A stretch of DNA of 64,000 bases. It comes from Arctopsyche grandis (taxonomy: Eukaryota; Arthropoda; Insecta; Trichoptera; Hydropsychidae). The first letter of the stretch is position 1. Each line of letters begins with the position of its first letter. Shown piece after piece: positions 24,321 to 64,000 of this stretch. Made by a program: the position numbers and the translations under genes. The DNA is taken from the NCBI RefSeq assembly GCF_051622035.1, contig NC_135360.1:34365206-34429205 (forward strand), written 5' to 3'. The notes below the pieces were generated by a model. It was not told the origin of the DNA. It ran no database searches and saw only the letters and a program-made list of their open reading frames with translations.

Positions 24321-25280
24321 CCCGCTTTTTTTGGAGTAACGCCTGCCTAAATGCCTCACACCGTCCGCTTCCGAGGCGATGGGTAGCACTCCGACCCACC
24401 TTCGCGCAGAGAGCACAGTGCGGTGAGTTGCTGCACGCTGCCGCTCTGTGCCCCGTCTTGCCGCAGCAGTTGCAGAGCGAAGACCTAACTTCATCAATGC
24501 AGCCAGCAGCAATGTGTCCAAAGGCTCGACAGCGGTAGCACTGTTGCAGGTCTACTTTTTCTCTTACCCTGCACCTGAGGAGTCCGACTCGTACGCGACC
24601 CTCCTTGAGCAGCGCGTCGGTCTCGGTAATGCAGGGCAAGGTCATCGTGCAGGTAAGCGTACCTCCGGAGGCTAGGCGCAGCCTCTGAACTTGAGCTCTG
24701 AGCTTGAGCATAGGTCCCTGACAAAACACTGGCGGGTGGGGAGCGACCGTCGGACCTCCGCCGCCATTCCTGCAGCCTTCCGAATGACGTCCTATGCTTC
24801 ATTCACGGCCTTGAGTATGGCCGCGTAAGAGAACGGAGTGGTAGTGACATCCGTGCCAGCGGCACCAGCAACCTTTACGTGTGGCCTGATGACAATCGCT
24901 TCCGTCCTCTCACGTGGCTTAATAATGGACTTGGGCTGTAACTTGGGCTTCGGCGGTGGGGGTACACTCTGTTTTTTCTTTTCTTCCAGTGGCAAAGGGC
25001 AGGAGCCCACTGTCTTCCTCTTTTTTTTTTTGGTTTTCGCCTTTTATTCTCTTTTCATCTTGCTTTTGTCTTCAGTAGATGTTTGGCAATAGGCGTCATA
25101 TCCGTCTTTCTGCCAGTTTTCCAATTTTTTGAACTTAGCAGCGATAGATGCCAAAGCATCTTTTATTATATTATGGACATTGTTTTTTCCACTCATGAAT
25201 TTTTGTAGGCTTTCAATATCCGCTCCAATCTCGCTTATTGGGTTTTGTATATGAATGCTTTTCTTCATTTTGATTCCCAT
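24298..25280 (-). pseudogene. R1-like ORF1 (gag-like, CCHC zinc knuckles)
   Basis: Starts MGIKMKKSIHIQNPISEIG. A lysine-rich stretch follows with an in-frame stop and a poly-A frameshift near 25025-25045, then a proline/lysine-rich segment (PPPPKPKLQPKSIIKPRERT). After another frameshift comes LRLASGGTLTCTMTLPC and three knuckles: CYRCRAFGHIAAGC, CNCCGKTGHRAAAC and CALCAK...HRLGSGRC. This knuckle order is typical of R1-clade ORF1. The gene is clearly dead. Confidence 0.8.
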
Positions 25281-28436: not shown

Positions 28437-31400
28437 AACCTAACCTCGCTAACCTCACTAAACCTAACCCAACCTAACCTAACCATCACCGATATCAAAG
28501 AATTCGAGATTGTAAGTTATACATAAAACTCGCTAACCTGTCGAAACCTAACCCAACCTAACCTAACCATCACCGAAATCAAAGAATTCGAGATTGTAAG
28601 ATTTACACAAAACGCGCTTACCTCACTAAACCTAATCCAACCGAACCTAACCATCACCGAAATCAATGAATTCGAGATTGTAAGTTATACACAAAACTCG
28701 CTTACCTCAAGAAACCGAACCCAACCTAACCTAACCATCACCAAAATCAAAGAATTCGACATTGCAAAAATATACACAAAAAATGCTAACCTCATCAAAC
28801 CTAACCCAACCTAACCTAACCAACAGCAAAATCAAAGAATTTCAGATTGCAAAAATATACACAAAACGTGCTAACCTCACAAAACCTAACCCAACCTAAC
28901 CTAAACAACACCAAAATCAAAGAATTCCAGATTGTAAGATTTAGACAAAACTCGCTAACCTCACCAAACCTAACCCAGCCTAACCTAACCATCACCAAAA
29001 TCAAAGAATTCGACATTGCAAAAATATACACAAAAAATGCTAACCTCATCAAACCTAACCCAACCTAATCTAACCAACACCAAAATCAAAGAATTTCAGA
29101 TTGCAAAAATATACACAAAACGTGCTAACCTCACAAAACCTAACCCAACCTAACCTAAACAACACCAAAATCAAAGAATTCCAGATTGTAAGATTTAGAC
29201 AAAACTCGCTAACCTCACCAAACCTAACCCAGCCTAACCTAACCATCACCAAAATCAAAGAATTCGACATTGCAAAAATATCCACAAAACGTGCTTACCT
29301 CACCAAACCAACCTAACCCAACCTTACAATCACCGAAATCAAAAAATTCGACAATGCAAAAATATCCACAAAACGTGGTAACCTCACCAAACCTCACCCA
29401 AAGTAACCTAACCATCATAGAAATCAAAGAATTCGACATTGCAAAAATATACACAAAACGTGCTAACCTCACCAAACCTAACCCAATCTAACGTAACCAA
29501 CACCAAAATCAATGAATTCGACATTGCAAAAATATACAAAAAACGTGCTAATCTCACCAAACCTAACCCAACCTAACCTTACCATGACCGAAATCAAAGA
29601 ATTCGACAATGCAAAAATATCCACAAAACGTGCTAACCTCACCAAACCTTACCCAAACTAACCTAACCATTATAGAAATCAAAAAATTAGACATTGCCAA
29701 AATATCCACAAAACGTGCTAACCTCACAAAACCCAACCCAACCTAACCTAACCATAACCGAAATCAATGAATTCGACATTGCAAAAATATACACAAAACG
29801 TGCTTACCTCACCAAACCTAACCCAACCTAACCTAACAATCACCGAAATCAAAGAATTTGAGATTGTAAGATTTACACAAAATTCGCTAACCTCAACAAA
29901 ATTTACCCAAACTAGCCTAACTATTACCGAAATCAAGGAATTCAACATTGCAAAAATATACACAAAACTCGCTACCTCACCAAACCTAACCCAACCAAAT
30001 TTAACCATCGCCGAAATCAAAGAATTCGAGATTGTAAAATTGACACTAAACTCGCTAACCTCACCAAACCAAACCCAACTTAGCCTAATTATCACCGAAA
30101 TCATAGAATTCGACATTGCTAAAATATACACAAAACGTGCTTACCTCACCAAACCAAACGCAACCTAACCTAACCATCACCGAAATCATAGAATTCAACA
30201 TTGCCAAAATATCCACAAAACGTGCTTACCTCACGAAACCTAACCCAACCATACTTAACCATCACCGAAATCAATGGATTCGACATTGCAAAAATATACA
30301 CAAAACGTGCTAACCTCAAGAAACCAAACGCAACCTAACCTAACCATCACCGAAATCAATGAATTAGACTGCAAAAATATACACAAAACGAGCTTACCTC
30401 ATCAAACCAAACGCAATCTAACCTCACCATCACCGAAATCATAGAATTCGACATTGCCAAAATATCCGCAAAACGTGCTAACCTCACGAAACCTAACCCG
30501 ACCTAACCTAACCATAACCGAAATCAAAGAATCTGAGATTGTAAGATTAACACAAAACTCGTTAACCTCACCAAACATAATCGAACATAGACTAACTATT
30601 ACCGAAATCAAAGAATTCGACATTGCAAAAATATACACAAAACTCGCTAGCATCACCAAACCTTACCCAAGATAACCTTACCATCACCGAAATCAAGGAA
30701 TTCGACATTGCAAAAATTTACAAAAAACTCGCTAACCTCACCAAACTTAACCCAACCTAACCTAACCATCGCCGAAATCAAAGAATTTGAGATTGTTAAA
30801 TTTACACAAAATTCGCTTACCTCAACAAACTAAACCCAACCTAGCCTCACTATTACCGTAATCAATGAATTCGATATTGCCAAAATATACACGAAACTCG
30901 CTAACCTCAAAAAACCTTAGCCAACCTAGCCTAACTATTACCGAAATCAAAGAAATCAACATTGCAAAAATATACAAAAAACTCGCTTACCTCACCAAAC
31001 CTAACCCAACTAAACTCAACCATCACCGAAATCAAAGAATTCAAGATTGTAAGATTTACACAAAACTCGCTAACCTCACCAAACCTAGCCCAACCAAGCC
31101 TAACTATCACCGAAATCATAGAATTCGACATTGCAAAAATATACACAAAACTCGCTAACATCACCAAAACTAACCCAACTTAATTTAACCATCACCGAAA
31201 TCAAAGAATTCAAGATTGTGAGATTTACACAAAATTCGCTAACCTCAACAAACCTAACCCAACCAAGCCTAACTATTACCTAAATCAAAGAATTCGACAT
31301 TGCAAAAATATACAAAAAACTCGCTAACCTCACCAAACTCTACCCATCCTAACCTTACAATCACCGAAATAAAAGAATTCGAGATTCGAAGATTTACACA

Positions 31401-34400
31401 AAACTCGCTTACCTCACCAAACCCAATCCAAACTAGCCTAACTATCACCGAAATTAAAGAATTCGAGATTGTAAGATTAACACAAAACTCGTTAACCTCA
31501 CCAAACCTAATCGAACCTAGCCTAACTATAACTGAAATCAATGAATTCAACATTGCAAAAATATACACAAAACTCGCTAGCATCACCAAACCTAACCCAT
31601 GCTAACCTTACCATCACCGAAATCAAAGAATTCGACATTGCAAAAATATACAAAAAACTCGCGAACCTCACCAAACTGAACCCAACCTAACCTAACCATC
31701 GCCGAAATCAAAGAATTTGAGATTGTAAGATTTACACAAAGTTCGCTTACCTCAACAAACTTAACCCAACCTAGCCTAACTATTACCGTAATCAAAGAAT
31801 TCGATAGTGCAAAAATATACACGAAACTCGCTTACCTCACCAAACCTAAACCAAACTAACCTAACCATAACCGAAATCAAAGAATTCGGCATTGCCAAAA
31901 TATCCACAAAACGTGCTTACCTCACGAAACCTTACCCAACCTAACCTAACCATCACCAAAATCAATGAATTAGACATAGCAAAAATATACACAAAACGAG
32001 CTTACCTCACCAAACCAAACGCAATCTAACCTAACCATCACCCAAATCATAGAATTCGACATTGCCAAAATATCCACAAAACGTGCTAACCTCACGAAAC
32101 CTAACCCGACCTAACCTAACCATCTACGAAATAAAGGAATCTGAGATTGTAAGATTAACACAAAACTCGTTAACCTCACCAAACCTAATCAAACCTAGCC
32201 TAACTTTTACCGAAATCAAAGAATTCGACATTGCAAAAATATACACAAAACTCGCTAGCATCACCAAACCTTACCCAAGCTAACCTTACCATCACCGAAA
32301 TCAAAGAATTCGACATTGCAAAATATTACAAAAAACTCGCTAACCTCACCAAACTAAACCCAACCTAACCTAACCATCGCCGAAATCAAAGAATTTGAGA
32401 TTGTTAAATTTACACAAAATTCGCTTACCTCAACAAACTAAACCCAACCTAGCCTCACTATTACCGTAATCAATGAATTCGATATTGCCAAAATATACAC
32501 GAAACTCGCTAACCTCAAAAAACCTTAGCCAACCTAGCCTAACTATTACCGAAATCAAAGAAATCAACATTGCAAAAATATACAAAAAACTCGCTTACCT
32601 CACCAAACCTAACCCAACTAAACTCAACCATCACCGAAATCAAAGAATTCAAGATTGTAAGATTTACACAAAACTCGCTAACCTCACCAAACCTAGCCCA
32701 ACCAAGCCTAACTATCACCGAAATCATAGAATTCGACATTGCAAAAATATACACAAAACTCGCTAACATCACCAAAACTAACCCAACTTAATTTAACCAT
32801 CACCGAAATCAAAGAATTCAAGATTGTTAGATATACACAAAACGTGCTAACCTCAAGAAACCAAACGCAACCTAACCTAACCATCACCGAACTCAATGAA
32901 TTAGACTGCAAAACTCTACCCATCCTAACCTTACAATCACCGAAATAAAAGAATTCGAGATTCGAAGATTTACACAAAACTCGCTTACCTCACCAAACCC
33001 AATCCAACCTAGCCTAACTATCACCGAAATTAAAGAATTCGAGATTGTAAGATTAACACAAAACTCGTTAACCTCACCAAACCTAATCGAACCTAGCCTA
33101 ACTATAACTGAAATCAATGAATTCAACATTGCAAAAATATACACAAAATTCGCTAGCATCACCAAACCTAACCCAAGCTAACCTAACCATCACCGAAATC
33201 AAAGAATTCGACATTGCAAAAATATACAAAAAACTCGCGAACCTCACCAAACTGAACCCAACCTAACCTAACCATCGCCGAAATAAAAGAATTTGAGATT
33301 GTAAGATTTACACAAAGTTTGCTTACCTCAACAAACTTAACCCAACCTAGCCTAACTATTACCGTAATCAAAGAATTCGATAGTGCAAAAATATACACGA
33401 AACTCGCTTACCTCACCAAACCTAAACCAAACTAACCTAACCATAACCGAAATCAAAGAATTCGGCATTGCCAAAATATCCACAAAACGTGCTAACCTCA
33501 CGAAACCTAACCCAAGCTTACTTAACCATCACCGAAATCAATGAATTCGACATTGCAAAAATATACAACAAACGTGCTAACCTCAACAAACCAAACGCAA
33601 CCTAACCTAACCATCACTGAAATCATAGAAATCGACATTGCCAAAATATCCACAAAACGTGCTTACCTCACGAAACCTTACCCAACCTAACCTAACCATC
33701 ACCAAAATCAATGAATTAGACATAGCAAAAATATACACAAAACGAGCTTACCTCACCAAACCAAACGCAATCTAACCTAACCATCACCCAAATCATAGAA
33801 TTCGACATTGCCAAAATATCCACAAAACGTGCTAACCTCACGAAACCTAACCCGACCTAACCTAACCATCACCGAAATAAAGGAATCTGAGATTGTAAGA
33901 TAAACACAAAACTCGTTAACCTCACCAAACCTAATCAAACCTAGCCTAACTTTTACCGAAATCAAAGAATTCGACATTGCAAAAATATACACAAAACTCG
34001 CTAGCATCACCAAACCTTACCCAAGCTAACCTTACCATCACCGAAATCAAAGAATTCGACATTGCAAAAGTTTACAAAAAACTCGCTAACCTCACCAAAC
34101 TAAACCCAACCTAACCTAACCATCGCCGAAATCAAAGAATTTGAGATTGTTAAATTTACACAAAATTCGCTTACCTCAACAAACTAAACCCAACCTAGCC
34201 TCACTATTACCGTAATCAATGAATTCGATATTGCCAAAATATACACGAAACTCGCTAACCTCAAAAAACCTTAGCCAACCTAGCCTAACTATTACCAAAA
34301 TCAAAGAATTCAACATTGCAAAAATATACAAATAACTCGCTAACCTCACCAAACTTAACCCAACCTAACCTAACCATCACCGAAATCAAAGAATTTGAGA

Positions 34401-35847
34401 TTCTTAGATTTACACAAAAATCGCTTACCTCAACAAACGTAACCCAACCTTGCCTAACTATTACCGTAATCAAAGAATTCGATATTGCAAAAATATACAC
34501 AAAACTCGCTTACCTCAAAAAACCTTAGCCAACCTAGCCTAACTATTACCGAAATCAAAGAATTCAACATTGCAAAAATATACAAAAAACTCGCTTACCT
34601 CACCAAACCTAACCCAACTAAACTCAACCATCACCGAAATCAAAGAATTAAAGATTGTAAGATTTACACAAAACTCGCTAACCTCACCATACCTAGCCCA
34701 ACCTAGCCTGACTATCACCGAAACCATAGAATTCGACATTGCAAAAATATACACAAAACTCGCTAACATCACCAAAACTAACCCAACCTAATTTAACCAT
34801 CACCGAAATCAAAGAATTCAAGATTGTAAGATTTACACAAAATTCGCTAACCTCAACAAACCTAACCCAACCAAGCCTAACTATTACCTAAATCAAAGAA
34901 TTCGACATTCCAAAAATATACAAAAAACTCGCTAACCTCACCAAACTCTACCCATCCTAACCTTACAATCACCAAAATAAAAGAATTCGAGATTCGAAGA
35001 TTTACACAAAACTCGCTTACCTCACCAAACCCAATCCAACCTAGCCTAACTATCACCGAAATTAAAGAATTCGAGATTGTAAGATTAACACAAAACTCGT
35101 TAACCTCACCAAACCTAATCGAACCTAGCCTAACTATAACTGAAATCAATGAATTCAAAATTGCAAAAATATACACAAAACTCGCTAGCATCACCAAACC
35201 TAACCCAAGCTAACCTAACCATCACCGAAATCAAAGAATTCGACATTGCAAAAATATACAAAATACTCGCGAACCTCACCAAACTGAACCCAACCTAACC
35301 TAACCATCGCCGAAATCAAAGAATTTGAGATTGTAAGATTTACACAAAATTCGCTAAACTCACCAAACCTAACCCAACCTAGCCTTACTATTACCAAAAT
35401 CAAAAAATTCGACATTGCAAAAATATACAAAAAACTCGCTTACCTTATCAAACCTCACCCAACCTAATTTAACGATCACCGAAATCAAAGAATTCGAGAT
35501 TATAAGATTAACACAAAACTCTTTAACCTTACCCAACCTAACCTTACCATCACCGAAATCAAAGAATTTGAGATTGTAAGATTTCTCCAAAACTTGCTTA
35601 CCTCAACAAACCTAAACCAACCTAACTTAACCATCACCGAAATCAAAGAATTCGAAATTGTAAGATTTACACAAAACTCGCTAGTTTCAACAAACCTAAC
35701 CCAACCTAGCCTTACTATCACCGAAATCATAGAATTAGACATTGCAAAAATATACACAAAACTCCCTTACCTTACCAAACCTAACCCAACCTAATTAAAC
35801 CATCACCGAAACTAAAGAATTTGAGATTGTAAGAATTATACAAAATT
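28437..35847 (-). repeat. Telomere-like 85-bp satellite, left arm (TTAGG strand is minus)
   Basis: About 87 tandem monomers of about 84-85 bp. On the plus strand each reads CCTAA-rich pentamers (AACCTAACCCAACCTAACC), then CATCACCGAAATCAAAGAAT, then one of several linkers. Linker types seen are GAGATTGTAAGATTTACAC (type B), GACATTGCAAAAATATACAC (type A) and a left-only form GACATTGCCAAAATATCCAC followed by AAAACGTGC. GAATTC recurs in most monomers. Local higher-order repeats exist: a 254-bp tandem copy near 28.73-29.24 kb, and a segment at about 30,375-31,215 repeated at about 31,983-32,823 (offset 1,608 bp). Overlapping opposite-strand frames of about 73 codons are by-products. Confidence 0.97.
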
Positions 35848-38800
35848 AGGTTAAGTTGGGTTAGGTTTGGTGTGGCTAGCGAGTTTTTTTTACATTTCTG
35901 CAATGTCGAATTCTTTGATTTCGGTGTAAGTGGAGCTAGGTTGGGTAAGGTTTGGTGAGGAAAGCGAGTTTTGTGTATATTTTTGCAATGTCGAATTCTT
36001 TGATATCGGTGATAGTTAGGCTAGGTTGGGTTAGGTTTGGTGAGGTTAGCGAATTTTGTGTAAATCTTACAATCTCAAATTCTTTAATTTAGGTGATGGT
36101 TAGGTTAGGTTGGGTTAGGTTTGGTGTGGTATGCGAGTTTTTTTTCCATTTCTGCAATGTCGAATTCTTTGATATCGGTGATAGTTAGGCTAGGTTGGGT
36201 TAGGTTTGGTGAGGAAAGCGAGTTTTGTGTATATTTTTGCAATGTCGAATTCTTTGATTTCGGTGATAGTTAGGCTAGGTTGGGTAAGGTTGGGTGAGGA
36301 AAGCGAGTTTTGTGTATATTTCTGCAATGTCGAATTCATTGATTTCGGTGATAGTGAGGTTAGGTTGGGTTAGGTTTGCTGAGGTAAGCAAATTTTCTGT
36401 AAATCTAACAATATCAAATTCTTTAATTTCGGTAATGGTTAGGTTAGGTTGGGTTAGGTTTGGTGTGGTATACGAGTTTTTTTACATTTCTGAAATGTCG
36501 AATTCTTTGATTTCGGTAAAAGTTAGGCAAGGTTGGGTTAGGTTTGGTGAGGAAAACGAGTTTTGTGTATATTTGTGCAATGTCGAATTCTTTGATTTCG
36601 GTTATAGTTAGGCTAGGTTGGGTTAGGTTTGGTAAGTTAAGCGAATTTTGTGTAAATCTTACAATCTCAAATTCTTTGATTTCGGTGATGGTTAAGTTAG
36701 GTTGGGTTAGGTGTGTTGAGGTATGCGAGTTTTTTTTACATTTCTGCAATGTCGAATTCTTTGATTTCGGTGATGGTTAGGCTAGGTTGGGTTAGGTTGG
36801 GTGAGGAAAGCGAGTTTTGTGTATATTTTTGCAATGTCAAATTCTTTGATTTCGGTGATAGTTAGGCTAGGTTGGGTAAGGTTTGGTAAGTTAAGCGAAT
36901 TTTGTGTAAATCTTACAATTTCAAATTCTTTAATTTCGGTGATGGTTAGGTTAGGTTGGGTTAGGTTTCGTGAGGTATGCGAGTTTTTTTTACATTTCTG
37001 CAATGTCGAATTCTTTGATTTCGGTAAAAGTTAGGCTAGGTTGGGTTAGGTTTGGTGAGGAAAGCGAGTTTTGTGTATATTTTTGGAATGTCGTATACTT
37101 TGATTTCGGTGATAGTTAGGCTAGGTTGGGTTAGGTTTGGTGAGATAAGCGAATTTTGTGTAAATCTTACAATCTCAAATTCTTTAATTTAGGTGATGGT
37201 TAGGTTAGGTTGGGTCAGGTTTGGTGTGGTATGCGAGTTTTTTTTACATTTCTGCAATGTCGAATTCTTTGATTTCGGTAAAAGTTAGGCTAGGTTGGGT
37301 TAGGTTTGGTGAGGAAAGCGAGTTTTGTGTATATTTTTGCAATGTCGAATTCTTTGATTTCGGTGATAGTTAGGCTAGGTTGGGTAAGGTTTGCTAAGTT
37401 AAGCGAATTTTGTGTAAATCTTACAATCTCAAATTCTTTGATTTCGGTGATGGTTAAGTTAGGTTGGGTTAGGTGTGTTGAGGTATGCGAGTTTTTTTCA
37501 CATTTCTGCAATGTCGAATTCTTTGATTTCGGTGATGGTAAGGCTAGGTTGGGTTAGGTTGGGTGAGGAACGCAAGTTTTGTGTATATTTTTGCAATGTC
37601 GAATTCTTTGATTTCGGTGATAGTTAGGCTAGGTTGGGTTAGGTTTGGTAAGTTAAGCGAATTTTGTGTAAATCTTACAATCTCAAATTCTTTGATTTCG
37701 CTGATGGTTAGGTTTGGTTGGGTAAGGTTTCGTGAGGTATGCGAGTTTTTTTAACATTTCTGCAATGTCGAATTCTTTGATTTCGGTAAAAGTTAGGCAA
37801 GGTTGGGTAAGGTTTGGTGAGGAAAGCGAGTTTTGTGTATATTTTTGCAATGTCGTATTTTTTGATTTCGATGATAGTTAGGCTAGGTTGGGTTAGGTTT
37901 GGTGAGATAAGCAAATTTTATGTAAATCTTACAATCTCAAATTCTTTAATTAAGTGATGGTTAGGTTAGGTTGGGTTAGGTTTGGTGTGGTATGCGAGTT
38001 TATTTTACATTTCTGCAATGTCGAATTCTTTGATTTCGGTAAAAGTTAGGCTAGGTTGGGTTAGGTTTGGTGAGGAAAGCGAGTTTTGTGTATATTTTTG
38101 CAATGTCGAACTCTTTGATATCGGTGATAGTTAGGCTAGGTTGGGTTAGGTTTGGTGAGGAAAGCGAGTTTTTTGTATATTTTTGCAATGTCGAATTCTT
38201 TGATTTTGGTAATAGAAAGGCTAGGTTGGGTTAGATTTGGTGAGTTTAGCGAATTTTGTGTAAATCTTACAATCTCAAATTCTTTGATTTCGGTGATGGT
38301 TGGTTAGGTTGGGTTAGGTTTGGTGAGGTATGCGGTTTTTTTTTACATTTCTGCAATGTCGAATTCTTTGATTTCGGTAAAAGTTAGGCTAGGTTTGGTT
38401 AGGTTTGGTGAGGAAAGCGAGTTTTGTGTATATATTTGCAATGTCGAATTCTTTGATTTCGGTGTAAGTGAGGCTAGGTTAAGTAAGGTTTGGTGAGGAA
38501 AGCGAGTTTTGTGTATATTTTTGCAATGTCGAATCCTTTGATTTCGGTGATAGTTAGGCTAGGTTGGGTTAGGTTTGATAAGGAAAGCGAGTTTTGTGTA
38601 TATTTTTGCAATGTCGAATTCTTTGATTTCGGTGGTAGTGAGGCTAGGTTATGTTAGGTTTGCTGAGGTTAGCGAATTTTCTGTAAATCTAACAATCTCA
38701 AATTCTTTAATTTCGGTGATGGTTAGGTTAGGTTGGGTTAGGTTTGGTGTGGTATACGAGTTTTTTTTACATTTCTGAAATGTCGAATTCTTTGATTTCG

Positions 38801-41800
38801 GTAAAAGTTAGGCTAGGTTGGGTTAGGTTTGGTGAGGAAAGCGAGTTTTGTGTATATTTTTGCAATTTCAAATTCTTTGATTTCGGTGAAAGTTAGGCTA
38901 GGTTGGGTAAGGTTTGGTAAGTTAAGCGAATTTTGTGTAAATCTTACAATCTCAAATTCTTTGATTTCGGTGATGGTTAAGTTAGGTTGGGTTAGGTGTG
39001 TTGAGGTATGCGAGTTTTTTTTACATTTCTGCAATGTCGAATTCTTTGATTTCGGTGATGGTTAGGCTAGGTTGGGTTAGGTTGGGTGAGGAAAGCGAGT
39101 TTTGTGTATATTTTTGCAATGTCAAATTCTTTGATTTCGGTGATAGTTAGGCTAGGTTGGGTAAGGTTTGGTAAGTTAAGCGAATTTTGTGTAAATCTTA
39201 CAATCTCAAATTCTTTAATTTCGGTGATGGTTAGGTTAGGTTGGGTTAGGTTTCGTGAGGTATGCGAGTTTTTTTTACATTTCTGCAATGTCGAATTCTT
39301 TGATTTCGGTAAAAGTTAGGCTAGGTTGGGTTAGGTTTGGTGAGGAAAGCGAGTTTTGTGTATATTTTTGGAATGTCGTATACTTTGATTTCGGTGATAG
39401 TTAGGCTAGGTTGGGTTAGGTTTGGTGAGATTAGCGAATTTTGTGTAAATCTTACAATCTCAAATTCTTTAATTTAGGTGATGGTTAGGTTAGGTTGGGT
39501 TAGGTTTGGTGTGGTATGCGAGTTTTTTTTACATTTCTGCAATGTCGAATTCTTCGATTTCGGTAAAAGTTAGGCTAGGTTGGGTTAGGTTTGGTAAGGA
39601 AAGCGAGTTTTGTGTATATTTTTGCAATGTCGAATTCTTTGATTTCGGTGATAGTTAGGCTAGGTTGGGTTAGGTTTGGTGAGGAAAGCGAGTCTTTTGT
39701 ATATTTTTGCAATGTCGAATTCTTTGATTTCGGTAAAAGTAAGGCTAGGTTTGGTTAGGTTTGGTGAGGAAAGCGAGTTTTGTGTATATATTTGCAATGT
39801 CGAATTCTTTGATTTCGGTGTAAGTGAGGCTAGGTTAAGTAAGGTTTGGTGAGGAAAGCGAGTTTTGTGTATATTTTTGCAATGTCGAATCCTTTGATTT
39901 CGGTGATAGGCTAGGTTGGGTTAGGTTTGATAAGGAAAGCGAGTTTTGTGTATATTTTTGCAATGTCGAATTCTTTGATTTCGGTGATAGTGAGGCTAGG
40001 TTATGTTAGGTTTGCTGAGGTTAGCGAATTTACTGTAAATCTAACAATCTCAAATTCTTTAATTTCGGTGATGGTTAGGTTAGGTTGGGTTAGGTTTCGT
40101 GAGGTATGCGAGTTTTGTTTACATTTCTGCAATGTCGAATTCTTTGATTTCGGTAAAAGTTAGGATAGGTTGGGTTAGGTTTGGTGAGGAAAGCGAGTTT
40201 TGTGTATATTTTTGCAATGTCGAACTCTTTGATATCGGTGATAGTTAGGCTAGGTTGGGTTAGGTTTGGTGAGGAAAGCGAGTTTTTTGTATATTTTTGC
40301 AATGTCGAATTCTTTGATTTTGGTAATAGTAAGGCTAGGTTGGGTTAGGTTTGGTGAGTTTAGCAAATTTTGTGTAAATCTTACAATCTCAAATTCTTTG
40401 ATTTCGTAGATGGTTGGTTAGGTTGGGTTAGGTTTGGTGAGGTATGCGGTTTTTTTTTACATTTCTGCAATGTCGAATTCTTTGATTTCGGAAAAAGTTA
40501 GGCTAGGTTTGGTTAGGTTTGGTGAGGAAAGCGAGTTTTGTGTATATATTTGCAATGTCGAATTCTTTGATTTCGGTGACAGTTAGGCTATGTTGGGTTA
40601 GGTTTGGTGAGGAAAGCGAGTTTTGTGTATATTTTTGCAATGTCAAATTCTTTGATTTCGGTGATAGTTAGGCTAGGTTGGGTAAGGTTTGGTAAGTTAA
40701 GCGAATTTTGTGTAAATCTTACAATCTCAAATTCTTTGATTTCGGTGATGGTTAAGTTAGGTTGGGTTAGGTGTGTTGAGGTATGCGAGTTTTTTTCACA
40801 TTTCTGCAATGTCGAATTCTTTGATTTCGGTGATGGTAAGGCTAGGTTGGGTTAGGTTGGGTGAGGAAAGCGAGTTTTGTGTATATTTTTGCAATGTCGA
40901 ATTCTTTGATTTCGGTGATAGTTAGGCTAGGTTGGGTTAGGTTTGGTAAGTTAAGCGAATTTTGTGTAAATCTTACAATCTCAAATTCTTTGATTTCGCT
41001 GATGGTTAGGTTTGGTTGGGTAAGGTTTCGTGAGGTATGCGAGTTTTTTAAACATTTCTGCAATGTCGAATTCTTTGATTTCGGTAAAAGTTAGGCAAGG
41101 TTGGGTAAGGTTTGGTGAGGAAAGCGAGTTTTGTGTATATTTTTGCAATGTCGTATTTTTTGATTTCGATGATAGTTAGGCTAGGTTGGGTTAGGTTTAG
41201 TGAGATTAGCAAATTTTATGTAAATCTTACAATCTCAAATTCTTTAATTAAGTGATGGTAAGGTTAGGTTGGGTTAGGTTTGGTGTGGTATGCGAGTTTA
41301 TTTTACATTTCTGCAATGTTGAATTCTTTGATTTCGGTAAAAGTTAGGCTAGGTTGGGTTAGGTTTGGTGAGGAAAGCGAGTTTTGTGTATATTTTTGCA
41401 ATGTCGAACACTTTGATATCGGTGATAGTTAGGCTAGGTTGGGTTAGGTTTGGTGAGGAAAGAGAGTTTTTTGTATATTTTTGCAATGTCGAATTCTTTG
41501 ATTTTGGTAATAGTAAGGCTAGGTTGGGTTAGGTTTGGTGAGTTTAGCGAATTTTGTGTAAATCTTACAATCTCAAATTCTTTGATTTCGGTGATGGTTA
41601 GGTTAGGTTGGGTTAGGTTTGGTGTGGTATGCGAGTTTTTTTTTCCATTTCTGCAATGTCGAATTCTTTGATATCGGTGATAGTTAGGCTAGGTTGGGTT
41701 AAGTTTGGTGAGGACAGCGAGTTTTGTGTATATTTTTGCAATGTCGAATTCTTTGATTTCGGTGATAGTTAGGCTAGGTTGGGTTAGGTATGGTGAGTTT

Positions 41801-49700: not shown

Positions 49701-49815
49701 TCTCAAATTCTTTGATTTCGGTGATGGTTGGTTAGGTTGGGTTAGGTTTGGTGAGGTATGCGGGTTTTTTTTACATTTCTGCAATGTCAAATTCTTAGAT
49801 TTCGGTAAAAGTTAG
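43721..49815 (+). repeat. 6,095-bp satellite super-unit, copy 1
   Basis: A block of about 72 monomers. Its monomer order and sequence recur 6,095 bp to the right throughout (for example 43,741 against 49,836; 45,515 against 51,610; 48,228 against 54,323). Boundaries are approximate, set where similarity breaks near 43,720. Confidence 0.88.
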
Positions 49816-52800: not shown

Positions 52801-55800
52801 GGAATGCGAGTTTTTTTTACATTTCTGCAATGTCGAATTCTTTGATTTCGGTAAAAGTAAGGCTAGGTTTGGTTAGGTTTGGTGAGGTAAGCGGGTTTTG
52901 TGTATATATTTGCAATGTCGAATTCTTTGATTTCGGTGTAAGTGAGGCTAGGTTAGGTAAGGTTTGGTGAGGAAAGCGAGTTTTGTGTATATTTTTGCAA
53001 TGTCGAATTCTTTGATTTCGGTGATAGTTAGGCTTGGTTGGGTTAGGTTTGATTAGGTAAGCGAGTTTTGTGTATATTTTTGCAATGTCGAATTCTTTGA
53101 TTTCGGTGATAGTGAGGCTAGGTTGGGTTAGGTTTGCTGAGGTATGCGAATTTTCTGTAAATATTACAATCGAAAATTCTTTGATTTCGGTGATGGTTAG
53201 GTTAGGTTGTGTTGGGTTTTGTGAGGAATGCGAGTTTTTTTTACATTTCTGCAATGTCGAATTCTTTGATTTCGGTAAAAGTTAGGCTAGGATGGGTTAG
53301 GTTTGGTGAGGAAAGCGAGTTTTGTGTATAATTTTGCAATGACGAATTCTTTGATTTCGGTTATAGTTAGGCTAGGTTGGGTTCGGTTTGGTAAGTTAAG
53401 CGAATTTTGTGTAAATCTTACAATCTCAAATTCTTTGATTTCGCTGATGGTTAGGTTTGGTTGGGTTAGGTTTCGTGAGGTATGCGAGTTTTTTTAACAT
53501 TTCTGCAATGTCGAATTCTTTGATTTCGGTAATAGTTAGGCTAGGTTGGAATAGGTTTAATGAGGTAAGCGAATTTTTTGTATATTTTTGCAATGTCGAA
53601 TTCTTTGATTTCGGTGATAGTTAGGCTAGGTTGGGTTTGGTTTGGTGAGGTTAGCGAATTTTGTGTAAATCTTACAATCTCAAATTCTTTAATTTAGGTG
53701 ATGGTAAGGTTAGGTTGGGTTAGGTTTGGTGTGGTATGCGAGTTTTTTTTACATTTCTGCAATGTCGAATTCTTTGATTTCGGTAAAAGTTAGGCTAGGT
53801 TGGGTTAGGTTTGGTAAGGTTAGCGAATTTTGTGTAAATCCTCCAATCTCAAATTCTTTAATTTAGGTGATGGTTAGGTTAGGTTAGGTTGGGTTTTGTG
53901 AGGTTTGCGAGTTTTTATTAACATTTCTGCAATGTCGAATTCATTGATTTCGGTAAAAGTTAGGCTAGGTTGGGTTAGGTTTGGTGAGGAAAGCGAGTTT
54001 TGTGTATATTTTTGCAATGTCGAATTCTTTGATTTCGGTGATAATTAGGCTAGGTTGGGTAAGGTTTGGTGGAGAAAGCGAGTTTTGTGTATATTTTTGC
54101 AATGTCGAATTCTTTGATTTCGGTTATTGTTAGGCTAGGTGAGGTTAGGTTTGGTGAGTTTAGCGAATTTTGTGTAAATCTTTCAATCTGAAATTCTTTG
54201 ATTTCGGTGATGGTTAGGTTAGGTTGGTTTAGGTTTCGTGAAGTATGCGAGTTTTTTTTACATTTCTGCAATGTCGAATTCTTTGATTTCGGTGATGGTA
54301 AGGCTAGGTTGGGTTAGGTTGGGTGAGGAAAGCGAGTTTTGTGTATATTTTTGCAATGTCGAATTCTTTGATTTCGGTGATAGTTAGGCTAGGTTGGGTT
54401 AGGTTTGGTAAGTTAAGCGAATTTTGTGTAAATCTTACAATCTCAAATTCTTTGATTTCGCTGATGGTTAGGTTTGGTTGGGTTAGGTTTCGTGAGGTAT
54501 GCGAGTTTTTTTTAACATTCCTGCAATGTCGAATTCTTTGATTTCGGTAAAAGTTAGGCTAGGTTGGGTTAGGTTTGGTGAGGAAAGCGAGTTTTGTGTA
54601 TATTTTTGCAATGTCGAACTCTTTGATATCGGTGATAGTTAGGCTAGGTTGGGTTAGGTTTGGTGAGGAAAGCGAGTTTTTTGTATATTTTTGCAATGTC
54701 GAATTCTTTGATTTTGGTAATAGTAAGGCTAGGTTGGGTTAGGTTTGGTGAGTTTAGCGAATTTTGTGTAAATCTTACAATCTCAAATTCTTTGATTTCG
54801 GTGATGGTTGGTTAGGTTGGGTTAGGTTTGGTGAGGTATGCGGTTTTTTTTTACATTTCTGCAATGTTGAATTCTTTGATTTCGGTAAAAGTTAGGCTAG
54901 GTTTGGTTAGGTTTGGTGAGGAAAGCGAGTTTTGTGTATATATTTGCAATGTCGAATTTTTTAATTTTGGTGATAGTTAGGCAAGGTTGGTTTAGGTTTG
55001 ATAAGGAAAGCGAGTTTTGTGTATATTTTTGCAATGTCGAATTCTTTGATTTCGGTAATAGTTAGGCTAGGTTGGAATAGGTTTAATGAGGTAAGCGAAT
55101 TTTTTGTATATTTTTGCAATGTCGAATTCTTTGATTTCGGTGATAGTTAGGCTAGGTTGGGTTAGGTTTGGTGAGTTTAGCGAATTTTGTGTAAATCTTA
55201 CAATCTCAAATTCTTTGATTTCGTTGATGGTTGGTTAGGTTGGGTTAGGTTTGGTGAGGTATGCGAGTTTTTTTTACATTTCTGCAATGTCGAATTCGTT
55301 GATTTCGGTAAAAGTTAGGCTAGGTTGGGTTAGGTTTGGTGAGGAAAGCGAGTTTTGTGTATATTTTTGGAATGTCGTATACTTTGATTTCGGTGATAGT
55401 TAGGCTAGGTTGGGTTAGGTTTGGTGAGATTAGCGAATTTTGTGTAAATCTTACAATCTCAAATTCTTTAATTTAGGTGATGATTAGGTTAGGTTGGGTT
55501 AGGTTTGGTGTGGTATGCGAGTTTTTTTTACATTTCTGCAATGTCGAATTCTTTGATTTCGGTAAAAGTTAAGCTAGGTTGGGTTAGGTTTGGTGAGGAA
55601 AGCGAGTTTTGTGTATATTTTTGCAATGTCGAATTCTTTGATTTCGGTGAAAGTTAGGCTAGGTTGGGTTAGGTTTGGTGAGGAAAGCGAGTCTTTTGTA
55701 TATTTTTGCAATGTCGAATTCTTTGATTTTGGTAATAGTAAGGCTAGGTTGGGTTAGGTTTGGTGAGTTTAGCGAATTTTGTGTAAATCTTACAATCTCA

Positions 55801-55910
55801 AATTCTTTGATTTCGGTGATGGTTGGTTAGGTTGGGTTAGGTTTGGTGAGGTATGCGGGTTTTTTTTACATTTCTGCAATGTCAAATTCTTAGATTTCGG
55901 TAAAAGTTAG
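49816..55910 (+). repeat. 6,095-bp satellite super-unit, copy 2
   Basis: Directly adjacent copy of the preceding block. I noticed only isolated differences, such as T45125 against G51220 and T49450 against C55545. After about 55,925 the order changes, so a third in-register copy does not follow. Part of this copy (from about 53,440) recurs with an offset of 6,014 bp in the last 4-5 kb of the window. Confidence 0.87.
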
Positions 55911-58311
55911 GCTAGGTTTGGTTAGGTTTGGTGAGGAAAGCGAGTTCTGTGTATATATTTGCAATGTCGAATTCTTTGATTTCGGTGTAAGTGAGGCTAG
56001 GTTGGGTAAGGTTTGGTGAGGAAAGCGAGTTTTGTGTATATTTTTAAAATGTCGAATTCTTTGATTTCGGTGATAGTTAGGCTAGGTTGGGTTAGGTTTG
56101 ATAAGGAAAGCGAGTTTTGTGTATATTTTTGCAATGTAGAATTCTTTGATTTCGGTGATAGTGAGGCTAGGTTGGGTTAGGTTTGCTGAGGTAAGCGAAT
56201 TTTCTGTAAATCTTACAATCGAAAATTCTTTGATTTCGGTGATGGTTAGGTTAGGTTGGGTTGGGTTTTGTGAGGAATGCGAGTTTTTTTTACATTTCTG
56301 CATTGTCGAATTCTTTGATTTCGGTAAAAGTTAGGCTAGGATGGGTTAGGTTTGGTGAGGAAAGCGAGTTTTGTGTATAATTTTGCAATGTCGAATTCTT
56401 TGATTTCGGTAATAGTTAGGCAAGGTTGGTTTAGGTTTGATAAGGAAAGCGAGTTTTGTGTATATTTTTGCAATGTCGAAGTCTTTGATTTCGGTAATAG
56501 TTAGGCTAGGTTGGAATAGGTTTAATGAGGTAAGCGAATTTTTTGTATATTTTTGCAATGTCGAATTCTTTGATTTCGGTGATAGTTAGGCTAGGTTGGG
56601 TTTGGTTTGGTGAGGTTAGCGAATTTTGTGTAAATCTTACAATCTCAAATTCTTTAATTTAGGTGATGGTTAGGTTAGGTTGGGTTAGGTTTGGTGTGGT
56701 ATGCAAATTTTTTTTACATTTCTGCAATGTCGAATTCTTTGATTTCGGTAAAAGTTAGGCTAGGTTGGGTTAGGTTTGGTGAGGAAAGCGAGTTTTGTGT
56801 ATATTTTCGCAATGACGAATTCTTTGATTTCGGTTATAGTTAGGCTAGGTTGGGTTCGGTTTGGTAAGTTAAGCGAATTTTGTGTAAATCTTACAATCTC
56901 AAATTCTTTGATTTCGCTGATGGTTAGGTTTGGTTGGGTTAGGTTTCGTGAGGTTTGCGAGTTTTTTTAACATTTCTGCAATGTCGAATTCTTTGATTTC
57001 GGTAAAAGTTAGGCTAGGTTGGGTTAGGTTGGGTGAGGAAAGCGAGTTTTGTGTATATTTTTGCAATGTCGAATTCTTTGATTTCGGTGATAGTTAGGCT
57101 AGGTTGGGTTAGGTTTGGTGAGGAAAGCGAGTCTTTTGTATATTTTTGAAATGTCGAATTCTTTGATTTTGGTAATAGTAAGGCTAGGTTGGGTTAGGTT
57201 TGGTGAGGTTAGCGAATTTTGTGTAAATCTTACACTCTCAAATTCTTTAATTTCGGTGATGGTTAGGTTAGGTTGGGTTTGGTTTGGTGTGGTATGCGAG
57301 TTTTTTTTACATTTCTGCAATGTCGAATTCTTTGATTTCGGTAAAAGTTAGGCTAGGTTGGGTTAGGTTTGGTGAGGAAAGCGAGTTTTGTGTATATTTT
57401 TGCAATGACGAATTCTTTGATTTCGGTTATAGTTAGGCTAGGTTGGGTTCGGTTTGGTAAGTTAAGCGAATTTTGTGTAAATCTTACAATCTCAAATTCT
57501 TTGATTTCGCTGATGGTTAGGTTTGGTTGGGTTAGGTTTCTTGAGGTTTGCGAGTTTTTTTAACATTTCTGCAATGTCGAATTCTTCGATTTCGGTAAAA
57601 GTTAGGCTAGGTTAGGTTAGGTTTGGTGAGGTAAGCGGGTTTTGTGTATATATTTGCAATGTCGAATTCTTTGATTTCGGTGTAAGTGAGGCTAGGTTGG
57701 GTAAGGTTTGGTGAGGAAAGCGAGTTTTGTGTATATTTTTGCAATGTCGAATTCTTTGATTTCGGTGATAGTTAGGCTAGGTTGGGTTAGGTTTGGTGGA
57801 GAAAGCGAGTTTTGTGTATATTTTTGCAATGTCGAATTCTTTGATTTCGGTTATTGTTAGGCTAGGTGAGGTTAGGTTTGGTGAGTTTAGCGAATTTTGT
57901 GTAAATCTAACAATCTCAAATTCTTTGATTTCGGTATGGTTGGTTAGGTTGGGTTAGGTTTGGTGAGGTATGCGGGTTTTTTTTACATTTCTGAAATGTC
58001 GAATTCTTTGATTTCGGTAAAAGTAAGGCTAGGTTGGGTTAGGTTTGGTGAGGTAAGCGGGTTTTGTGTATATATTTGCAATGTCGAATTCTTTGATTTC
58101 GGTGTAAGTGGAGCTAGGTTGGGTAAGGTTTGGTGAGGAAAGCGAGTTTTGTGTATATTTTTGCAATGTCGAATTCTTTGATATCGGTGATAGTTAGGCT
58201 AGGTTGGGTTAGGTTTGGTGAGGAATGCGAGTTTTGTGTATATTTTTGCAATGTCGAATTCTTTGATTTTGGTAATAGTTAGGCTAGGTTGGAATAGGTT
58301 AAATGAGGTAA

Positions 58312-60345
58312 GCGAATTTTTTGTATATTTTTGCAATGTCGAATTCTTTGATTTCGGTGATAGTTAGGCTTGGTTGGGTTTGGTTTGGTGAGGTTAGCGA
58401 ATATTGTGTAAATCTTACAATCTCAAATTCTTTGATTTCGCTGATGGTTAGGTTTGGTTGGGTTAGGTTTCGTGAGGTATGCGAGTTTTTTTAACATTTC
58501 TGCAATGTCGAATTCTTTGATTTCGGTAATAGTTAGGCTAGGTTGGAATAGGTTTAATGAGGTAAGCGAATTTTTTGTATATTTTTGCAATGTCGAATTC
58601 TTTGATTTCGGTGATAGTTAGGCTAGGTTGGGTTTGGTTTGGTGAGGTTAGCGAATTTTGTGTAAATCTTACAATCTCAAATTCTTTAATTTAGGTGATG
58701 GTAAGGTTAGGTTGGGTTAGGTTTGGTGTGGTATGCGAGTTTTTTTTACATTTCTGCAATGTCGAATTCTTTGATTTCGGTAAAAGTTAGGCTAGGTTGG
58801 GTTAGGTTTGGTAAGGTTTGCGAATTTTGTGTAAATCCTCCAATCTCAAATTCTTTAATTTAGGTGATGGTTAGGTTAGGTTAGGTTGGGTTTTGTGAGG
58901 TTTGCGAGTTTTTATTTACATTTCTGCAATGTCGAATTCATTGATTTCGGTAAAAGTTAGGCTAGGTTGGGTTAGGTTTGGTGAGGAAAGCGAGTTTTGT
59001 GTATATTTTTGCAATGTCGAATTCTTTGATTTCGGTGATAATTAGGCTAGGTTGGGTAAGGTTTGGTGGAGAAAGCGAGTTTTGTGTATATTTTTGCAAT
59101 GTCGAATTCTTTGATTTCGGTTATTGTTAGGCTAGGTGAGGTTAGGTTTGGTGAGTTTAGCGAATTTTGTGTAAATCTTTCAATCTGAAATTCTTTGATT
59201 TCGGTGATGGTTAGGTTAGGTTGGTTTAGGTTTCGTGAAGTATGCGAGTTTTTTTTACATTTCTGCAATGTCGAATTCTTTGATTTCGGTGATGGTAAGG
59301 CTAGGTTGGGTTAGGTTGGGTGAGGAAAGCGAATTTTTTGTATATTTTTGCAATGTCGAATTCTTTGATTTCGGTGATAGTTAGGCTTGGTTGGGTTTGG
59401 TTTGGTGAGGTTAGCGAATATTGTGTAAATCTTACAATCTCAAATTCTTTGATTTCGCTGATGGTTAGGTTTGGTTGGGTTAGGTTTCGTGAGGTATGCG
59501 AGTTTTTTTAACATTTCTGCAATGTCGAATTCTTTGATTTCGGTAATAGTTAGGCTAGGTTGGAATAGGTTTAATGAGGTAAGCGAATTTTTTGTATATT
59601 TTTGCAATGTCGAATTCTTTGATTTCGGTGATAGTTAGGCTAGGTTGGGTTTGGTTTGGTGAGGTTAGCGAATTTTGTGTAAATCTTACAATCTCAAATT
59701 CTTTAATTTAGGTGATGGTAAGGTTAGGTTGGGTTAGGTTTGGTGTGGTATGCGAGTTTTTTTTACATTTCTGCAATGTCGAATTCTTTGATTTCGGTAA
59801 AAGTTAGGCTAGGTTGGGTTAGGTTTGGTAAGGTTAGCGAATTTTGTGTAAATCCTCCAATCTCAAATTCTTTAATTTAGGTGATGGTTAGGTTAGGTTA
59901 GGTTGGGTTTTGTGAGGTTTGCGAGTTTTTATTTACATTTCTGCAATGTCGAATTCATTGATTTCGGTAAAAGTTAGGCTAGGTTGGGTTAGGTTTGGTG
60001 AGGAAAGCGAGTTTTGTGTATATTTTTGCAATGTCGAATTCTTTGATTTCGGTGATAATTAGGCTAGGTTGGGTAAGGTTTGGTGGAGAAAGCGAGTTTT
60101 GTGTATATTTTTGCAATGTCGAATTCTTTGATTTCGGTTATTGTTAGGCTAGGTGAGGTTAGGTTTGGTGAGTTTAGCGAATTTTGTGTAAATCTTTCAA
60201 TCTGAAATTCTTTGATTTCGGTGATGGTTAGGTTAGGTTGGTTTAGGTTTCGTGAAGTATGCGAGTTTTTTTTACATTTCTGCAATGTCGAATTCTTTGA
60301 TTTCGGTGATGGTAAGGCTAGGTTGGGTTAGGTTGGGTGAGGAAA
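58312..60345 (+). repeat. 1,017-bp tandem duplication within the satellite
   Basis: Two adjacent copies, 58,312-59,328 and 59,329-60,345, each 12 monomers. Shared unusual variants show the register: GCGAATATTGTG at about 58,398 and 59,415, and the TTGGAATAGGTTTAATGAGG monomer at about 58,543 and 59,560. Confidence 0.85.
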
Positions 60346-63300
60346 GCGAGTTTTGTGTATATTTTTGCAATGTCGAATTCTTTGATTTCGGTGATAGTTA
60401 GGCTAGGTTGGGTTAGGTTTGGTAAGTTAAGCGAATTTTGTGTAAATCTTACAATCTCAAATTCTTTGATTTCGCTGATGGTTAGGTTTGGTTGGGTTAG
60501 GTTTCGTGAGGTATGCGAGTTTTTTTTAACATTCCTGCAATGTCGAATTCTTTGATTTCGGTAAAAGTTAGGCTAGGTTGGGTTAGGTTTGGTGAGGAAA
60601 GCGAGTTTTGTGTATATTTTTGCAATGTCGAACTCTTTGATATCGGTGATAGTTAGGCTAGGTTGGGTTAGGTTTGGTGAGGAAAGCGAGTTTTTTGTAT
60701 ATTTTTGCAATGTCGAATTCTTTGATTTTGGTAATAGTAAGGCTAGGTTGGGTTAGGTTTGGTGAGTTTAGCGAATTTTGTGTAAATCTTACAATCTCAA
60801 ATTCTTTGATTTCGGTGATGGTTGGTTAGGTTGGGTTAGGTTTGGTGAGGTATGCGGTTTTTTTTTACATTTCTGCAATGTTGAATTCTTTGATTTCGGT
60901 AAAAGTTAGGCTAGGTTTGGTTAGGTTTGGTGAGGAAAGCGAGTTTTGTGTATATATTTGCAATGTCGAATTTTTTAATTTTGGTGATAGTTAGGCAAGG
61001 TTGGTTTAGGTTTGATAAGGAAAGCGAGTTTTGTGTATATTTTTGCAATGTCGAATTCTTTGATTTCGGTAATAGTTAGGCTAGGTTGGAATAGGTTTAA
61101 TGAGGTAAGCGAATTTTTTGTATATTTTTGCAATGTCGAATTCTTTGATTTCGGTGATAGTTAGGCTAGGTTGGGTTAGGTTTGGTGAGTTTAGCGAATT
61201 TTGTGTAAATCTTACAATCTCAAATTCTTTGATTTCGTTGATGGTTGGTTAGGTTGGGTTAGGTTTGGTGAGGTATGCGAGTTTTTTTTACATTTCTGCA
61301 ATGTCGAATTCGTTGATTTCGGTAAAAGTTAGGCTAGGTTGGGTTAGGTTTGGTGAGGAAAGCGAGTTTTGTGTATATTTTTGGAATGTCGTATACTTTG
61401 ATTTCGGTGATAGTTAGGCTAGGTTGGGTTAGGTTTGGTGAGATTAGCGAATTTTGTGTAAATCTTACAATCTCAAATTCTTTAATTTAGGTGATGATTA
61501 GGTTAGGTTGGGTTAGGTTTGGTGTGGTATGCGAGTTTTTTTTACATTTCTGCAATGTCGAATTCTTTGATTTCGGTAAAAGTTAAGCTAGGTTGGGTTA
61601 GGTTTGGTGAGGAAAGCGAGTTTTGTGTATATTTTTGCAATGTCGAATTCTTTGATTTCGGTGATAGTTAGGCTAGGTTGGGTTAGGTTTGGTGAGGAAA
61701 GCGAGTCTTTTGTATATTTTTGCAATGTCGAATTCTTTGATTTTGGTAATAGTAAGGCTAGGTTGGGTTAGGTTTGGTGAGTTTAGCGAATTTTGTGTAA
61801 ATCTTACAATCTCAAATTCTTTGATTTCGGTGATGGTTGGTTAGGTTGGGTTAGGTTTGGTGAGGTATGCGGGTTTTTTTTACATTTCTGCAATGTCAAA
61901 TTCTTAGATTTCGGTAAAAGTTAGGCTAGGTTTGGTTAGGTTTGGTGAGGAAAGCGAGTTCTGTGTATATATTTGCAATGTCGAATTCTTTGATTTCGGT
62001 GTAAGTGAGGCTAGGTTGGGTAAGGTTTGGTGAGGAAAGCGAGTTTTGTGTATATTTTTAAAATGTCGAATTCTTTGATTTCGGTGATAGTTAGGCTAGG
62101 TTGGGTTAGGTTTGATAAGGAAAGCGAGTTTTGTGTATATTTTTGCAATGTCGAATTCTTTGATTTCGGTGATAGTGAGGCTAGGTTGGGTTAGGTTTGC
62201 TGAGGTTAGCGAATTTTCTGTAAATCTTACAATCGAAAATTCTTTGATTTCGGTGATGGTTAGGTTAGGTTGGGTTGGGTTTTGTGAGGAATGCGAGTTT
62301 TTTTTACATTTCTGCATTGTCGAATTCTTTGATTTCGGTAAAAGTTAGGCTAGGATGGGTTAGGTTTGGTGAGGAAAGCGAGTTTTGTGTATAATTTTGC
62401 AATGTCGAATTCTTTGATTTCGGTAATAGTTAGGCTAGGTTGGTTTAGGTTTGATAAGGAAAGCGAGTTTTGTGTATATTTTTGCAATGTCGAAGTCTTT
62501 GATTTCGGTAATAGTTAGGCTAGGTTGGAATAGGTTTAATGAGGTAAGCGAATTTTTTGTATATTTTTGCAATGTCGAATTCTTTGATTTCGGTGATAGT
62601 TAGGCTAGGTTGGGTTTGGTTTGGTGAGGTTAGCGAATTTTGTGTAAATCTTACAATCTCAAATTCTTTAATTTAGGTGATGGTTAGGTTAGGTTGGGTT
62701 AGGTTTGGTGTGGTATGCGAGTTTTTTTTACATTTCTGCAATGTCGAATTCTTTGATTTCGGTAAAAGTTAGGCTAGGTTGGGTTAGGTTTGGTGAGGAA
62801 AGCGAGTTTTGTGTATATTTTTGCAATGACGAATTCTTTGATTTCGGTTATAGTTAGGCGAGGTTGGGTTCGGTTTGGTAAGTTAAGCGAATTTTGTGTA
62901 AATCTTACAATCTCAAATTCTTTGATTTCGCTGATGGTTAGGTTTGGTTGGGTTAGGTTTCGTGAGGTTTGCGAGTTTTTTTAACATTTCTGCAATGTCG
63001 AATTCTTTGATTTCGGTAAAAGTTAGGCTAGGTTGGGTTAGGTTGGGTGAGGAAAGCGAGTTTTGTGTATATTTTTGCAATGTCGAATTCTTTGATTTCG
63101 GTGATAGTTAGGCTAGGTTGGGTTAGGTTTGGTGAGGAAAGCGAGTCTTTTGTATATTTTTGAAATGTCGAATTCTTTGATTTTGGTAATAGTAAGGCTA
63201 GGTTGGGTTAGGTTTGGTGAGGTTAGCGAATTTTGTGTAAATCTTACACTCTCAAATTCTTTAATTTCGGTGATGGTTAGGTTAGGTTGGGTTTGGTTTG

Positions 63301-64000
63301 GTGTGGTATGCGAGTTTTTTTTACATTTCTGCAATGTCGAATTCTTTGATTTCGGTAAAAGTTAGGCTAGGTTGGGTTAGGTTTGGTGAGGAAAGCGAGT
63401 TTTGTGTATATTTTTGCAATGACGAATTCTTTGATTTCGGTTATAGTTAGGCTAGGTTGGGTTCGGTTTGGTAAGTTAAGCGAATTTTGTGTAAATCTTA
63501 CAATCTCAAATTCTTTGATTTCGCTGATGGTTAGGTTTGGTTGGGTTAGGTTTCGTGAGGTTTGCGAGTTTTTTTAACATTTATGCAATGTCGAATTCTT
63601 CGATTTCGGTAAAAGTTAGGCTAGGTTAGGTTAGGTTTGGTGAGGTAAGCGGGTTTTGTGTATATATTTGCAATGTCGAATTCTTTGATTTCGGTGTAAG
63701 TGAGGCTAGGTTGGGTAAGGTTTGGTGAGGAAAGCGAGTTTTGTGTATATTTTTGCAATGTCGAATTCTTTGATTTCGGTGATAGTAAGGCTTGGTTGGG
63801 TTAGGTTTGATAAGGTAAGCGAGTTTTGTGTATATTTTTGCAATGTCGAATTTTTTGATTTCGGTGATAGTGAGGCTAGGTTGGGTTAGGTTTGCTGAGG
63901 TTAGCGAATTTTCTGTAAATCTTACAATCGAAAATTCTTTGATTTCGGTGATGGTTAGGTTAGGTTGGGTTGGGTTTTGTGAGGAATGCGAGTTTTTTTT

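Follow-up and report, generated by a model that had tools for sequence, protein, structure and literature searches.

How does a piece of telomere repeat become built into a satellite, and does it still serve the telomere once it is there? The question is raised by 64,000 nucleotides of the insect Arctopsyche grandis (hereafter the window; C6:34365206-34429205, where C6 is contig NC_135360.1, 34,753,932 bases long), whose right-hand part is filled by a satellite with a block of TTAGG-like pentamers in its ~85-bp monomer. The original prediction, made from the letters of the window, held that a telomeric stretch had been captured into a satellite unit and then amplified. This is still the best reading, given that the block agrees with the telomere repeat at 30 of 35 positions. 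In fact, we think it probable that the array goes back to a telomere relic that was captured once and then amplified as chromosome ends exchanged sequence. It looks like a major chromosome-end satellite, not a working telomere.

The satellite itself is borne out by two methods. Tandem Repeats Finder reports period 85 at 28445-35845 and at 35846-63996, and wrap-around alignment to the cyclic consensus yields 87 + 332 = 419 monomers of ~85 bp in 28438-64000. The array is built of two oppositely directed blocks that meet in an orientation flip at 35845..35846. The inner, inverted block (28438..35845, minus strand, ~87 monomers) has its G-rich strand on minus, directed away from the chromosome end, while in the main block (35846..64000, plus strand, ~332 monomers) this strand is directed at the end. 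A reading of the pentamers on the plus strand thus holds from 35846 onward, and not for the inverted 28438-35845. The inner block is also the more diverged (mean identity to the consensus 0.87, against 0.90 in the main block).

The monomers fall into types that follow each other in an orderly way. In the main block (A 156, B 88, C 72, D 10, E 6) the order is nearly strict: each B is followed by one to five A and these by C, and D and E occur close to C. Counting D and E with C, the 331 steps comprise 84 BA, 84 AC, 87 CB, 72 AA and 4 BC. The monomers of the inner block are nearest to types A and C only. Farther out on C6 the order is looser (over the next 30 kb, 7 of 353 steps are CA), and B-A(n)-C is common to the C5 start and the C6 end, which belong to different chromosomes. 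The C1 start has types A and C only, and the C2 start carries a different, dimeric form that we call type 2. Identical 60-mers return at distances of, for example, 6, 14 and 15.5 kb, pointing to segment duplication. GAATTC and GATTTCGGT had both been expected in each monomer. This is not so, as the satellite of the window holds 256 and 261 copies (41 + 220 for the latter) in its 419 monomers. Still, 254 of the 255 intervals between GAATTC sites measure one, two or three monomers, so that an EcoRI ladder is to be expected. Nor is the array limited to 35 kb, as first described: all 12 of the 10-kb samples from between the window and the contig end hold satellite (one also holds a long interspersed nuclear element, LINE), and the contig end beyond is (TTAGG)n. 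Neither Rfam at its gathering threshold nor ARAGORN found a match in the window, and a 25-bp satellite core pattern had no match in the genome_contigs or viral_contigs collections, as expected for an animal satellite.

Is the resemblance to the telomere real? As an example, the first 35 bp of one monomer (35846..35880, plus strand) read TTAGG TTAAG TTGGG TTAGG TTTGG TGTGG CTAGC. The best ungapped alignment of the unit to (TTAGG)7 runs from base 85 to base 34 and matches at 30/35 positions; bases 1-35 match at 29/35. The consensus sequences of three monomer types score 25-27 against the telomere repeat. Their dinucleotide shuffles average 6.5-7.5 with a maximum of 22, and for each type 0 of 2000 reach the score, which confirms the predicted block. 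Its length is nearly fixed: among 1,238 blocks measured between flanking anchors in eight stretches (a ninth, the C2 start, gave none with these anchors), 1,115 are 33 bp long, 115 are 32 bp and 8 differ more. Active slippage of the block was considered and set aside because of this near-fixed length, though rare expansions, to 46 and 78 bp between anchors, do exist. One stretch of C6 (34499206-34509205) carries the 78-bp expansion near its positions 860 and 3948, in two copies ~3,088 bp apart. With ~35 of 85 bp telomere-like, the unit differs from an interstitial telomeric sequence in the sense of a tract that is essentially telomere repeat. The weak G-quadruplexes foreseen on one strand are weakly right: a four-tract G2 motif occurs in 318 of 331 85-bp bins with a G4Hunter maximum of 1.24 (references: (TTAGG)n 0.80, vertebrate repeat 1.50), and no G3 motif was found in the 331 bins.

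The way in which the block departs from TTAGG is equally telling. We compared five blocks on four chromosomes (window A, window B, and the C1, C2 and C5 starts). At positions 13, 23, 27 and 35 the commonest base differs from TTAGG in all five, and the departing base is identical across blocks, except at position 35 in C2. The TTAGG base stands at positions 23, 27 and 35 in 0-1% of monomers and at position 13 in 2-14%. Such common departures suggest one founder, that is, a single founding event behind the satellite unit. Variation at telomere-matching positions is lower than at the rest in window B and the C5 start (0.076 vs 0.107; 0.077 vs 0.107), and equal or higher in the other three blocks (0.119 vs 0.121; 0.070 vs 0.069; 0.120 vs 0.073). 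Thus, the pentamer part lacks consistently stronger conservation, which speaks against a selected role in telomere maintenance, and its simplest reading is a passive relic.

The satellite turns out to be a major component of the genome. The assembly counts 475.7 Mb in 189 contigs, among which C1-C13 measure 29.5-42.7 Mb and C14-C20 less than 1 Mb; later in the numbering, some contigs exceed this size (on C41, matches extend to 2.87 Mb). An 18-bp core, GAATTCTTTGATTTCGGT, searched with up to 2 mismatches, finds 170,713 + 172,500 = 343,213 copies, against 9 + 6 = 15 for the reversed control. At 85 bp each this makes 29 Mb, or 6.1% of the assembly, a figure that is probably a minimum because the core recovers 0.66-1.01 of the monomers in eight blocks. 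At the 26 ends of C1-C13 the assembly finishes in (TTAGG)n 16 times, in satellite 7 times, in N twice and in other sequence once. The pentamers are therefore shared with the true telomere repeat of the species, and the objection foreseen at the outset, that they might not be, falls away. These caps also set the species apart from the chironomid arrangement, in which the ends carry no simple telomere repeat. Together with the lack of consistent extra constraint on the pentamers, they leave the suggested telomere-maintenance satellite not borne out. In its last 400 bases the C2 right end shows neither telomere nor satellite, but an (AC)n tract along with other sequence. At 150 kb from the end, 20 of the 26 ends were sampled and gave satellite at 15, other sequence at 4 and N at 1. 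Deeper samples hold satellite in 1 of 5 at 500 kb and 0 of 3 at 1 Mb. Single points on two unplaced contigs gave satellite on C18 and none on C19.

Where the array adjoins the terminal telomere repeat, the contact can be read base by base. We did so at the C2 and C5 starts, where satellite and telomere are directly joined: both joins fall inside the pentamer block, and nearly pure TTAGG follows. At C5 the monomer runs to GTTAGACTAGGTTG and then into TAGG(TTAGG)n, where internal monomers go on GGTTAGG. At C2 it runs to GGTTCAGTTGGGTTAGG and then into (TTAGG)n; of eight internal C2 monomers shown, one shares the same 22 bases followed by TTTGG and the rest differ. Over the inner 3.8 kb the run of perfect TTAGG has no interruption at C5 and a single one at C2, ~0.1 kb from the join. 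These joins are consistent with telomere addition or recombination in the block, and it is plausible that the block acts as a seed for telomere addition. Candidate further joins, by position alone and among the matches listed, lie at C4:11392, C6:8784, C12:7788, C13:29513979 and C4:37065777.

Near the ends, the satellite also tends to point the same way as the telomere. In the 150-kb samples the G-rich strand is directed toward the end in 9 of 10 type-1 arrays and 0 of 5 type-2 arrays (Fisher p 0.002), with types assigned by best score and four of the ten type-1 calls made with a margin of 0-3. A second view comes from expanded blocks, places where satellite flank runs into eight near-perfect pentamers, of which there are 303 genome-wide (control 0). 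Among the 100 places listed, to which the positions and directions of expanded blocks given here and below refer, all 27 that lie less than 300 kb from an end, at 7 ends, are directed toward it. The inner block of the window is directed inward like the sampled type-2 arrays, but its sequence is nearer type 1.

The pentamers also appear to attract a mobile element. Within the array outside the window, at C6:34.63 Mb, lies an intact-looking TRAS/SART-like LINE with two open reading frames (ORFs), at positions 783-5032 of the 10-kb stretch L042 (C6:34629206-34639205). The frames are 424 and 992 aa long; ORF1 has a zinc knuckle and ORF2 the Exo_endo_phos_2 and RVT_1 domains. Compared with the PDB, the endonuclease region matches TRAS1 best (1wdu, 4.7e-11; R1 follows at 4e-7). 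Judged by its sequence, the element would belong to the two-ORF LINEs of the R1 clade with a telomere-type endonuclease, as a TRAS/SART-like member. Its 44-base poly(A) tail joins GGTATGCGAGTTT, a sequence that is found again, with TGA in front of it, ahead of the 5' end. In this one insertion read, the target duplication is thus 13-14 bp long and starts at TG^AGG in a satellite pentamer. In silkworm, the SART1 tail is joined to AGG after TT (PMC7265360). Our element is like TRAS/SART LINEs in its two ORFs, in its best endonuclease match (TRAS1) and in a poly(A) that abuts the (A)GG of a pentamer, and unlike them in that the site is TG^AGG in a satellite monomer instead of TT^AGG in the telomere repeat, with a 13-14 bp duplication.

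How widespread are such insertions? Genome-wide, poly(A)18 followed by GGTATGCGAG (at most 1 mismatch) is found at 15 places in 8 clusters, and followed by GGTTAGGTT at 93 places; both reversed controls give 0. A poly(A) tail joined to the non-telomeric part was found at 0 places genome-wide, the control here being a single site. Nine of the 93 GGTTAGGTT-type matches, each with 1 mismatch, stand in series at C5:4734002-4735654, mostly at 181-bp spacing, and perhaps represent another tandem repeat with telomere-like pentamers, not LINE tails. The remaining 84 are candidate LINE tails in satellite or telomere. A search for 3' ends of the L042 LINE gave 328 candidate places, and the 40 of them that were scored have 99-100% identity. 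They lie mostly in chromosome interiors or on unplaced contigs (17 on C29), and several follow one another at intervals of 3.4-3.7 kb, as would be seen had LINE and satellite been amplified together as a larger unit. Only 4 of the 40 pair with either poly(A) pattern and the rest have other joins, which counts against a strict pentamer targeting rule. The non-telomeric part of the monomer has no match to the LINE of L077/L042 (its score is 20, where shuffles average 21.9 and 86 of 100 do as well), nor to the left 28.4 kb of the window (27 of 100 shuffles do as well).

To bring these results together, we propose that a short run of already decaying TTAGG and ~50 bp of unrelated sequence would have become a tandem unit in one founding event. 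The unit would then have split into types A, B and C and the dimeric type-2 variant, and kilobase-scale segments would have been copied inside the arrays and passed from one chromosome end to another. When exchange involves non-homologous ends, only one polarity yields viable products, which would explain why in outer arrays the G-rich strand mostly faces the telomere. The satellite is capped by ordinary (TTAGG)n. TRAS/SART-like LINEs would insert in the pentamers on account of the likeness to their telomeric target. In other respects, the arrays may be mainly passive subtelomeric and interstitial heterochromatin.

A number of observations weigh against a relic spread by exchange among ends. 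At 150 kb, 4 of the 20 sampled ends are without satellite (C2 end, C10 start, C12 start, C13 end). Moreover, expanded blocks reveal interior arrays, with both ends over 1 Mb away, on no fewer than 11 of the 13 chromosomes (C1, C3-C12). The satellite is thus not confined to chromosome ends and the predicted subtelomeric label is incomplete: 15 of 20 end samples support it, and the interior arrays make it non-exclusive. Polarity has its exceptions too. Within 400 kb of an end, 38 expanded blocks point toward it, and the C11 end accounts for all 4 that point away; when the range is widened to 5 Mb, the counts become 46 and 24. At the C9 start, type 1 is directed inward at 150 kb, and on both C2 and C8 type 2 points outward at the tip, yet inward at 150 kb. 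The satellite is directed inward at the contig tips of the C5 end, C11 end and C13 start, which lack telomere and may be incomplete. Finally, two joins are few, and the chance that both would fall in the 35/85 block is ~0.17.

Could the array be more than a relic? The pentamers might be kept as correctly directed telomerase primers, a reserve that re-caps ends broken within the array. We consider this unlikely, even though the outward G-strand at 7 of 7 ends with nearby expanded blocks, both joins with their clean TTAGG and the 303 expanded-block places all fit it, as does the lower variability of telomere-matching positions in 2 of 5 blocks. In the other 3 blocks these positions are equally or more variable, the TTAGG base has nearly disappeared from four positions, and interior and inward-directed arrays cannot serve such a purpose. 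Somewhat less likely still is an extended version, a distributed reserve telomere in which outward blocks, thousands per end, would both seed telomerase and land the telomere-type LINE, so that both buffer the ends, and in which healing would leave expanded blocks that are then copied through the array. A centromeric or pericentromeric satellite with incidental telomere-like pentamers, the latter placement having been among those first suggested, would account for the share of ~6% of the assembly and for the interior arrays. It would also fit that a pair of units spans 170 bp, close to the length of a nucleosome. This explanation seems improbable to us, considering the satellite at 15 of 20 sampled ends, its direct joins to telomere repeat at C2 and C5, and the several interior places on one chromosome (on C4 at 9.0, 13.9 and 17.9 Mb, among the matches listed). 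As for G-rich pentamers of low complexity that resemble the telomere by chance, only 2 of the 7 pentamers in the main consensus are exact TTAGG, as this would have it. It is very hard to reconcile with the shuffles, with a strand polarity that is telomere-like at most sampled ends and with TTAGG as the true telomere, and we give it almost no credit.

Satellites with telomere-like motifs are already known in plants, and telomere repeats in satellite DNA have been reviewed, in the parts consulted (PMC9693754, PMC9498494). Among the titles and abstract openings listed by a literature search by kind, not by species, none concerned an insect satellite built like this one. In the passages compared, potato CL14/CL34 (PMC3276127) are alike in that they form long arrays in the subtelomere, with two families succeeding each other along the end, a direct telomere join and incomplete monomers at joins. 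Unlike ours, they are plant satellites of 182/339-bp units and exclusively distal, whereas Arctopsyche grandis has interior arrays; these passages make no mention of a telomere-like part in the unit. Tanacetum TcSAT1/TcSAT2 (PMC6532368) are, from the excerpts used, subterminal satellites with imperfect telomere-like motifs, including a ~21-bp cluster in TcSAT2, and differ by shorter or dispersed motifs and by the telomere, which is that of a plant. Interstitial telomeric sequences of heterochromatin or subtelomeres, as PMC9498494 and PMC9693754 describe them, share degenerate telomere repeats off the tip, some within satellite DNA; our satellite differs in pairing, unit after unit, a block that hardly varies in length with a non-telomeric part. 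Chironomid telomeric satellites, in the section consulted (PMC9693754), likewise lie at insect chromosome ends, but they maintain the telomere, where (TTAGG)n caps the ends of Arctopsyche grandis. The present satellite is a clear case: a very high-copy unit with the host's own telomere repeat, readable telomere joins and a telomere-type LINE targeting the satellite. With it, a single genome allows two questions to be tested, namely whether telomere addition favours telomere-like blocks and whether target-specific LINEs track a decayed target. A working telomere reserve, if true, would be an interesting outcome.

The left flank of the window is of a different nature. A G-run near 28.2 kb and a C-terminal piece of a hAT transposase (PF05699; 27296-28159, plus strand) lie directly beside the inner satellite edge, and a second hAT piece lies at 16882-17154 (minus strand). 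At 24298-24729 (minus strand), three CCHC-like knuckles recognised by eye resemble ORF1 of R1-clade LINEs, with no match in Pfam. Ordinary genes stand ~9-22 kb from the satellite edge, as shown by BTB and BTBD17-TRAF pieces and ELMO/CED-12 pieces at 6113-7838 (minus) and 18606-19661 (plus). A single open frame of 837 aa with N1221 and DUF3402 domains, which we take to be STRIP-like, lies at 11747-14260 (minus). The GC content reaches 0.67 in the 12001-14000 bin, against ~0.35 in the surrounding region.

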